Shown: one piece after another, positions 1 to 46,204 of the stretch
Position numbering within the stretch: position 1 is the first letter of the stretch
How the letters are laid out: the number at the start of each line of letters is the position of its first letter
NCBI GenBank assembly: GCA_024639965.1
Contig: JAHEGC010000001.1
Location: forward strand, 22,660-74,358
Reading direction: 5' to 3'
Length of the DNA: 51,699 bases
Origin: Micrococcales bacterium
GTDB taxonomy: Bacteria; Actinomycetota; Actinomycetes; Actinomycetales; Microbacteriaceae
Translations under genes and position numbers: made by a program
Notes under the pieces: model-generated
The model's database searches: none
The model's input: the letters and a program-made list of their open reading frames with translations, nothing else
Told to the model about the DNA's origin: nothing

Positions 1-170
1 TTCGATCCCAGTATCGCCCACAAAAGAATGTTTCTGTCGAATACGTGACGACGATTGAGTCCGCAGGACTCCATCGCTGGTTCGATCCCAGTATCGCCCA
101 CCAAATCAATTGGCTGTCGAATACGTGACGACGATTGAGTCCGCAGGACTCCATCGCTGGTTCGATCCCG
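1..170 (+). repeat. 80-bp tandem repeat carrying tRNA 3' ends (about 2.5 copies)
   Basis: Positions 34-89 and 114-169 are identical over 56 bases, and 1-21 are identical to 81-101, so the period is exactly 80. Each unit has a near-perfect hairpin (52-76 and 132-156; about ten base pairs, one T-C mismatch, loop GCA) followed by a tRNA-like T-arm. In the middle copy, 76-103 reads as a full T-stem (GCTGG / CCAGT, G-T at the base), T-loop TTCGATC, acceptor strand ATCGCCC, discriminator A and encoded CCA. The first copy ends CAA instead of CCA, and the last copy diverges right after the T-loop. No matching 5' acceptor strand (GGGCGAT) lies inside the window, so no complete tRNA is present. The array may continue to the left of position 1. 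Confidence 0.85.
76..103 (+). other. tRNA 3'-end fragment (T-arm, acceptor strand, CCA), probably valine type
   Basis: The stem GCTGG/CCAGT, loop TTCGATC, acceptor strand ATCGCCC, discriminator A and CCA fit tRNA positions 49-76. The acceptor would pair with GGGCGAT, which I associate from memory with actinobacterial tRNA-Val; the identity is inference. The D-arm and 5' acceptor strand are missing, and the bases upstream form a stem with the wrong loop size for an anticodon arm, so this is a remnant or copied end and not a functional tRNA gene. Confidence 0.6.
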
Positions 171-189
171 CAAAGAATTCGCCGGTCGA

Positions 190-216
190 TAGACTGGGGC
201 TTCGCGTTCCAAGGAG
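190..216 (+). promoter_or_regulatory. Putative thrS -10 hexamer and Shine-Dalgarno site
   Basis: TAGACT at 190-195 fits the TANNNT form of actinobacterial -10 boxes. AAGGAG at 211-216 lies seven bases before the GTG at 224. No convincing -35 hexamer is visible. The Shine-Dalgarno site decides the thrS start; the longer in-frame reading from 110 would translate the tandem repeat. Confidence 0.4.
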
Positions 217-223
217 TTCATTC

Positions 224-2206
224 GTGTCCGAAGCCATCACGTTGTCCGAAGTGTCGGACGGGTTCGGGCTTTTCGCCGACAAGACGATTGTCGCGATGCG
301 CGTCAACGGCGAACTCCGCGATCTCGCCCACAAGGCACAGTCGGGCGATGTGGTCGAGGGCGTCCCGATTGACTCGGCGGACGGCCTCAATATTCTTCGC
401 CACTCCACGGCCCACGTGCTCGCCCAGGCAGTTCAGCGCGTCAACCCCGACGCGAAGCTCGGGATTGGACCACCCGTCACCGACGGCTTCTATTACGACT
501 TCGACGTCGAGAATCCGTTCACTCCGGAGGACCTCGCCGTTCTCGAAAAGGAGATGAACCGAATCGTGCAGTCGGGCCAACGTTTCATGCGCCGTGTGGT
601 GACGGACGATGAGGCTCGCGCGGAACTCGCCGCAGAGCCCTACAAACTCGAACTCATTGGGCTCAAGGGCGGCAACACTGGAGACGACAACGAAAACGTC
701 GAGGTGGGTGGCACCGAACTCACGATTTACGACAACGTCGATCCGAAGACGGGCGAGACCGTCTGGAAGGATCTCTGCCGGGGGCCTCACCTTCCCAACA
801 CCCGCATGATCGGTCAGGGGTACAAGCTGATGCGGGCGGCCGCGGCCTATTGGCGGGGTTCGGAGAAGAACCCGTCGCTGCAACGAATCTATGGAACGGG
901 CTGGCCGTCGAAGCAGGAGCTTCGCGATCACATCGAGCGTCTTGAGGAGGCGTCGAAGCGCGATCACCGCCGCCTCGGTGCCGAACTCGACCTGTTCTCG
1001 TTCCCGGACGAAATCGGTTCGGGCTTGGCCGTGTTCCACCCTAAGGGCGGAATCATTCGTCGCACGATGGAGGATTATTCGCGCGAACGCCACGAACACG
1101 CCGGGTATGAGTTTGTCTATTCGCCGCACATCACCAAGCAAAACCTGTTCGAGGTGAGCGGTCACCTCGGTTGGTACAAGGAGGGGATGTTCCCCCCGAT
1201 GCACCTCGATGAGGTTCGCAACGAGGCGGGTGAGATTACCCGTGCGGGTGTCGACTATTACCTCAAGCCGATGAATTGCCCGTTCCACATTCTCATTTAT
1301 CGCTCGCAGGGTCGGTCCTATCGCGATCTGCCGATGCGTCTCTTCGAATTCGGTGGGGTCTACCGTTACGAGAAGTCGGGCGTGGTCCACGGTCTCACCC
1401 GAGTCCGCGGAATGACGCAAGACGACGCTCACATCTTCACCACGCCCGAGAAGATGGAAGAGGAGCTCACGGGTGTACTCGACTTCGTTCTTTCGCTCTT
1501 GCGCGATTACGGCCTCAACGATTTCTACTTGGAGCTCTCGACTCGCGACGGTTCGGACAAATTCGTCGGGTCCGACGAACTCTGGAACACCGCGACGGCA
1601 ACGCTCGAGAAGGTCGCCAACGATTCGGGGCTCACACTGGTGCCCGACCCCGGTGGGGCCGCCTTCTACGGGCCGAAGATTTCCGTGCAGGCTCGAGACG
1701 CCATCGGTCGAACCTGGCAAATGTCAACGATTCAACTCGACTTCAATCTCCCCGAACGATTCGGCCTCGAGTACACCGCCTCGGACGGTTCCCGTCAGCG
1801 ACCGGTGATGATCCACCGAGCGCTCTTCGGGTCTGTCGAGCGTTTCTTCGGTGTTCTTCTCGAGCACTACGCGGGCGCATTCCCCGTTTGGCTCGCGCCC
1901 GTTCAAGCGGTGGCGGTTCCCGTGGCGGAGGAATACGCCGATTACCTCGCCCACGTCGTAAGCCAAATGAAAGCCGCGGGCATTCGTGCCGAACTAGACG
2001 CGTCGGATGACCGAATGCAAAAAAAGATTCGCAATCACACCTTGGCCAAGGTCCCCTTCATCGTTATCGCGGGGGAGGAAGATCGAGCGAACAATGCCGT
2101 CTCCTTCCGTTACCGAAACGGTGAACAAGAAAACGGAATTCCCCTGGCGCATGCCATCGATCGCATCGCTGAAGCGATTCGAAGCCGGTCGACGGATCTC
2201 GCGTGA
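224..2206 (+). CDS. thrS: Threonyl-tRNA synthetase
   Basis: Cytoplasmic class II synthetase that charges tRNA-Thr and clears mischarged Ser-tRNA. The 660 residues read, in order: TGS domain (about 1-60), editing domain with HSTAH and the CRGPH cysteine/histidine site, catalytic core with motif 2 ([12 protein letters not shown], then HGLTRVRGM) and motif 3 ([12 protein letters not shown]), and a C-terminal anticodon-binding domain. The start is GTG 224, because AAGGAG sits seven bases upstream and the protein then begins directly at the TGS domain; an in-frame TTG at 110 would add 38 residues encoded by the tandem repeat. Its stop overlaps the start of the HIT-family gene (GTGA), so the two are likely co-transcribed. 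Confidence 0.96.
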
Positions 2207-45979: not shown

Positions 45980-46204
45980 ATGAACGATGCACACGACCCC
46001 GGACACGGATCGTCTCCCGCTGCGTGGACCGGCATGATCATCATGCTGGTCGGCTTCAGTGCCGGAACCCTTTTCTTCTGGTTTGACCAAGCGGCCCTCG
46101 TGTGGGCGAGCGCTTCCCTTCTCGCAATCGGCCCCATCGTCGGAACCGTCATGGCTAAAGCCGGCTATGGCGTCGGCGGGTCGAAGACCACGGCCACCCA
46201 CTAG
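45980..46204 (+). CDS. HGxxPAAW-type small membrane protein, unknown function
   Basis: 74 residues with the family motif GHGSSPAAWTG at residues about 7-17 and two hydrophobic helices (about 17-37 and 41-61), ending with a short polar tail. Proteins of this kind are commonly found between trpE and trpC in actinobacteria, but their function is not known to me; the linkage suggests, without proof, a role near tryptophan synthesis. ATG 45980 has a strong AGGAGG upstream. It ends two bases before trpC. Confidence 0.87.
   Translation: MNDAHDPGHGSSPAAWTGMIIMLVGFSAGTLFFWFDQAALVWASASLLAIGPIVGTVMAKAGYGVGGSKTTATH

Follow-up and report, generated by a model that had tools for sequence, protein, structure and literature searches.

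A family of hairpin modules behind tRNA genes in a freshwater bacterial group resembles scars or landing sites of inserting DNA

The stretch of DNA analyzed here (51,699 nucleotides, referred to below as the window) opens with the 3' end of a tRNA-Val(GAC) gene on the forward strand. This remnant (positions 1-20) comprises the T-loop, the 3' strand of the T-stem, the 3' strand of the acceptor stem and the discriminator base, and it is recognized by ARAGORN, by Rfam and by the overlap at a scaffold seam described below. It is followed on the same strand by a tandem repeat with a period of 80, in which both copies contain an exact 56-base core (34-89 and 114-169). Unit A carries a 25-nt hairpin with a single mismatch, CGATTGAGTCC-GCA-GGACTCCATCG (52-76), and unit B carries a hairpin of the same sequence (132-156). 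A copy of the tRNA-Val(GAC) 3' end (77-103) comes directly after hairpin A and consists of the T-arm (77-91) and the 3' acceptor strand with an encoded CCA (92-103). The T-arm copy behind hairpin B is truncated to CTGGTTCGATCCC (157-169), where the array ends. These measurements reproduce the period, core, hairpins and T-arms reported in an earlier sequence-only reading of this DNA, as well as its observation that one unit retains the full acceptor strand with CCA.

Upstream of hairpin A lies a TGTCGAATACGTGA segment (35-48, forward strand, assigned partly by eye) that looks like the T-arm copied in inverted, degenerate form. The segment is nearly identical in another genus (genome G207). The downstream neighbor of the array is thrS (224-2206, forward strand), identified by Pfam as the gene for threonyl-tRNA synthetase. 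It has a GTG start preceded by AAGGAG at 211-216. When the 51.7-kb window is searched for hairpins with an 11-bp stem, a three-base loop and at most one mismatch, only those of the two units and one at position 46027 are recovered.

ARAGORN finds no complete tRNA within the window. The earlier statement to that effect is correct for the window and misleading as biology, because the window edge cuts through tRNA-Val(GAC). Extension to the left, a check proposed in the same reading, reveals the complete gene by both ARAGORN and Rfam (L003 5388-5460; G000:C26:22387-22458). It lies together with the genes for tRNA-Val(CAC), tRNA-Gly(GCC) and tRNA-Cys(GCA) to the left of a 100-N scaffold gap (L003 5561-5660), and the window begins directly to the right of this gap. 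Positions 1-121 are identical to the 121 bases immediately left of the gap. Two further seams in this genome (C30 at Val-TAC and C23 at Leu-CAG) also combine 100 N with a dovetail overlap of exactly 121 nt. Because these seams share the same overlap, the repeat across the gap most likely represents an unmerged contig overlap with no extra biology, and a real duplication was rejected on the recurrence of this overlap at three seams. The merged locus most likely reads as one complete tRNA-Val(GAC), two 80-bp units and thrS. False duplicate tRNA genes (Val-TAC, Leu-CAG) result from such seams (L003 5561-5660, L241 899-998, L256 935-1034).

A seam with a 121-base overlap at the window edge might suggest that the entire repeat is an assembly artefact, as the sequence-only reading had cautioned. 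This is scarcely credible. Units A and B have different spacers and both reside on a single contig stretch. Moreover, related units are present in independently assembled genomes, including the two-contig genome G010. The same reading had also allowed that the repeats might simply end an ordinary tRNA array in which complete genes span them. This is not the case here, since the 5' two thirds of a tRNA are missing from the units and the hairpin takes their place.

Comparisons with other genomes, mostly metagenome assemblies, indicate that these units belong to a family of modules in this freshwater bacterial group, and the modules have the appearance of scars left by, or landing sites for, DNA inserted at tRNA genes. 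Each module, 66-93 bp in length, has a spacer and then a 25-nt hairpin that leads into a copied 3' end of the local tRNA. The hairpin has an 11-bp stem and a three-base loop, mostly with the apex AGTCC-RCN-GGACT. Additional module sites in the window's own genome are located behind Val(CAC), Ala(GGC), which has three units, and Val(TAC), which has a variant hairpin. Tails with modules are present at four of its approximately 42 tRNA genes, as counted in a census that required a 12-base copy and missed Val(TAC), which was then found by eye. Further short tails may exist in this genome.

A covariance model of the 25-nt hairpin was searched over 15 genomes of the genus. Nearly all matches at E<=7e-4 are in tRNA tails, and those in the window's own genome are in tRNA tails only. 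Within the genus, sites are found at Arg(CCT) in nine genomes and at Val(TAC), Val(CAC), Ala(GGC), Ala(CGC) and a tRNA-Ile without a T-arm. Two other genera possess the same hairpin type, at Val(GAC) in G207 and at Gly(CCC) in G298. The hairpin type is thus seen behind Arg, three kinds of Val, two kinds of Ala, the Ile gene without a T-arm and Gly, each time with the local 3' end. The Ile case is a tRNA-Ile(GAT)-like gene in G014 that lacks the T-arm and is followed by a family hairpin (L159, reverse strand, around 1749).

The 37 tabulated units contain 31 distinct hairpins, which adopt Watson-Crick pairs at 325 of 341 stem positions (95%) even though the lower stem varies. Their 25-nt length is constant, and the loop is RCN in all but one of the 31. 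Two-sided stem changes occupy 33 cells, compared to 9.5 in shuffles, in a 17-sequence alignment that includes some units related by descent. The non-Watson-Crick pairs are three G-T and five A-C, so that a wobble bias characteristic of an RNA strand is absent, although these numbers are small. This pattern shows that a palindrome is maintained. It does not imply RNA as the level of selection, because shared descent and DNA-level correction of palindromes can mimic compensation.

The junction between hairpin and tRNA copy is precise. In 16 of 18 tabulated cases the 3'-end copy begins at the first base past the hairpin, and its first bases, depending on the tRNA, are the T-arm letters CTCC, CCCC, CTGG or CGAG. 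A direct repeat of the tRNA 3' end, as expected for tRNA-targeting elements, is present; it runs variably past the tRNA end and totals 12-66 bp. The purest example is the third unit behind Ala(GGC) in the window's own genome, where only a single base and the 25-nt hairpin lie between two 66-bp copies. At Gly(CCC) in G298, from another genus, a 56-bp exact repeat encloses 42 nt plus the hairpin. A strict pattern for Val(GAC) tails recovers them in four genera and in 6 of 398 genomes of the family, with a common junction base and unrelated hairpin sequences; an inverted copy of the T-arm is present as well in three of these genomes.

As a rule, each 3'-end copy agrees with the tRNA beside it, down to lineage-specific acceptor sequences. 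For example, the Arg acceptor copy reads CAGCGGC in G004, G007 and G013, and CAAGGGC in G005, G008 and G014. Repeated renewal or homogenization of the copies is therefore implied. Terminal units are often degenerate. Some tails have additional structure. The Val(GAC) tails of G187 (L194), G268 (L192) and G697 (L193) place an inverted T-arm copy before the hairpin and 3'-end copy, and the tail in G187 has three units. In these three genomes and in E. coli, the 3'-end copy can form an outer helix with a complementary stretch upstream; this was rejected as a general module feature. A different tail lies behind tRNA-Lys(TTT) in G010 (L272 199-340), where a hairpin of terminator type is accompanied by a tRNA segment in inverted orientation, a long stem and the Lys 3' end in copy.

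Modules are gained and lost between relatives. The interval between tRNA-Val(GAC) and thrS holds no units in G001, G002, G006, G008 and G012, two in the window's own genome and three of another type in G010. Gene content at module loci varies as well. At Arg(CCT) in G013, a segment of approximately 1.9 kb with three ORFs is located between units 3 and 4, and it includes an Amidase_6 gene that is absent from all other genus genomes searched. This is the one clear case of cargo between repeats; the window locus has none. A gene of the fn3 type lies behind the Arg units in some relatives and not in others, and the genes behind Ala(CGC) differ among relatives. By analogy, such variable gene content is the behavior of additive flexible islands. 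As described in the available portions of the respective reports, tRNA-fragment direct repeats mark the cassette ends of additive flexible genomic islands in Ca. Actinomarinales (PMC7771536) and the ends of inserted cassettes in Methylophilaceae (PMC10872708). At two loci, Val(GAC) and Val(TAC), conservation of the downstream genes makes it unnecessary to invoke cargo, which speaks against the insertion reading there.

In bacteria, mobile DNA lands mainly at the 3' ends of tRNA genes, and repeats of tRNA fragments serve as marks of past insertions. We tentatively favor the explanation that the modules are scars, left at insertion or attachment sites by flexible DNA that targets tRNA genes, and have been amplified in tandem, because the junction is fixed, many tRNA genes are each followed by their own 3' end, units turn over between relatives and one locus carries cargo. 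DNA with the hairpin as its right end would join a tRNA gene at a point within the T-stem. An intact tRNA would remain on the left, while on the right the 3' end that had been displaced would come to lie directly behind the hairpin, giving junctions analogous to attL and attR in elements that target tRNA genes. Tandem units could then result if such events recurred or if 3'-end copies recombined unequally, and genes might occasionally be carried between them.

Such a process would amount to site-specific recombination at the hairpin as the element end, with a putative recombinase acting in trans. A PF00589 search, which addresses the tyrosine type only, detects just two tyrosine-recombinase genes in the window's own genome (94% complete). 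These are probably XerC and XerD, and the search reveals no dedicated recombinase beyond these two Xer-like genes. Searches of viral contigs with two patterns found no phage attP; three loose matches were read as chance, and none has the Val(GAC) form. The cargo evidence also comes from a single case that could reflect homologous recombination, which weighs against insertion scars. Nor would a recombinase site that acts simply as double-stranded DNA be expected to show compensated changes in its stem. It is conceivable, though very doubtful, that the module is a structure-defined insertion site, in which a folded single-stranded 25-nt palindrome is used by a putative host recombinase, perhaps Xer. 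This arrangement would permit integron-like addition of cassettes at tRNA ends with no dedicated integrase.

When the sequence was first read, it was suggested that a tRNA locus had been duplicated in tandem or that integration at a tRNA end had left remains, and both ideas are still live, with support from the relatives in each case. Duplication would proceed by replication slippage or template switching that copies a tRNA 3' end with its flank. The hairpin would be a product or promoter of this process, and neither an element nor a function would be involved. Several units are indeed plain tandem repeats (Ala unit 1 and Val-CAC in the window's own genome, Arg in G014), and the inverted T-arm copies of G187, G268 and G697 fit template switching. 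Palindrome correction can give stems a compensated appearance, and the lack of wobble bias and the unrelated hairpins at the same junction in other genera are in keeping with this account. However, independent slippage would not readily produce a fixed junction or, across eight tRNA species, a common apex and an exact length of 25 nt, and the hairpin-model matches are restricted to tRNA tails. Slippage is the main rival explanation, possible but unlikely.

The modules might instead be RNA tails similar to RtT, which would be predicted to be co-transcribed with the tRNA and to yield tRNA-like small RNAs or steer 3' processing. The E. coli tyrV/rttR locus is built on the same plan, with tandem units that end in the local tRNA-Tyr 3' end, and for this reason RNA and DNA readings of the module both remain. 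The maintenance of the hairpin as a structure and the CCA encoded in unit A are also compatible with an RNA tail. Against it, the modules have no Rfam match, the 3' end decays in terminal units, many relatives have no units at all and the wobble bias is missing. We regard this function as distinctly unlikely. Far less probable is a leader that controls the adjacent synthetase gene thrS by sensing or processing tRNA, another suggestion of the sequence-only reading. The array does end approximately 40 bases upstream of the thrS ribosome-binding site. However, the genes that lie beyond the modules at other tRNA genes are quite different, and the tRNA-Val(GAC)-thrS arrangement lacks any unit in most relatives examined. 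A T-box upstream of thrS, already discounted in that reading, was rejected here because Rfam gives no match in a stretch covering window positions 1-841 and because modules occur without thrS. Intrinsic terminators, defined as G+C-rich hairpins followed by a T run, are absent from window positions 1-400, and this candidate was set aside for want of a T run.

What distinguishes these loci is a conserved hairpin that is fused base-exactly to tRNA fragments at many tRNA genes, and the genomes concerned encode almost no recombinases themselves. The module offers a sequence handle on gene gain and loss at tRNAs in streamlined aquatic bacteria, and it could also account for RtT-like repeats elsewhere.

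Several known systems resemble the modules in part. A literature search on RtT or on repeats 3' of tRNAs returned nothing directly useful. The distal repeats of E. coli tyrT/tyrV (RtT, RF00391) are likewise tandem units located 3' of a tRNA, each ending in its 3' end, and hairpins are found in both. However, the E. coli units are 178 bp long and are associated with tRNA-Tyr, and the 3'-end copy has its complement in a GGGGAAGGAT strand of the unit, whereas the modules described here are 66-93 bp, have a 25-nt hairpin that abuts the copy and follow many tRNAs. RF00391 has no match at E<=1 in L003 or at E<=0.1 in L080, L087 and L155. Membership in this family was rejected because the E. coli control (L188) gives three matches of 134-138 bits and the window locus gives none.

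REP and BIME elements, which are mobilized by RAYT proteins, are also short palindromes with compensated stems. Unlike them, the modules are confined to tRNA tails in the genus. A REP/RAYT origin was rejected, as Y1_Tnp (TnpA-REP) is found in none of the 15 genus genomes and the hairpin matches in the window's own genome are not dispersed. Dispersed look-alike 25-nt hairpins, such as CGAAACAGTCCACTGGACTGTTTCG, occur in rumen Selenomonadaceae/Schwartzia MAGs (L199-L222) and in Ca. Sumerlaeota (L202, L215), with no tRNA near the palindromes in either group. The selenomonad palindromes are usually embedded in a larger structured repeat. The search pattern itself required the shared bases, so this likeness does not establish common descent. 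Genome G212 (L160-L166) has several dispersed hairpins with a GGTCCACTGGACC apex that lie away from tRNA genes and are partly in tandem (L165).

Additive flexible islands and tycheposons differ from the modules in that most units here have no genes and no dedicated integrase was seen. The conserved 25-nt hairpin before the tRNA copy is a further distinction, at least in relation to the available portions of PMC7771536 and PMC10872708, which do not mention one for additive islands. What those accounts do describe, a partial tRNA 3' end repeated at the end of each cassette in streamlined aquatic bacteria, is the feature that these systems share with the modules.
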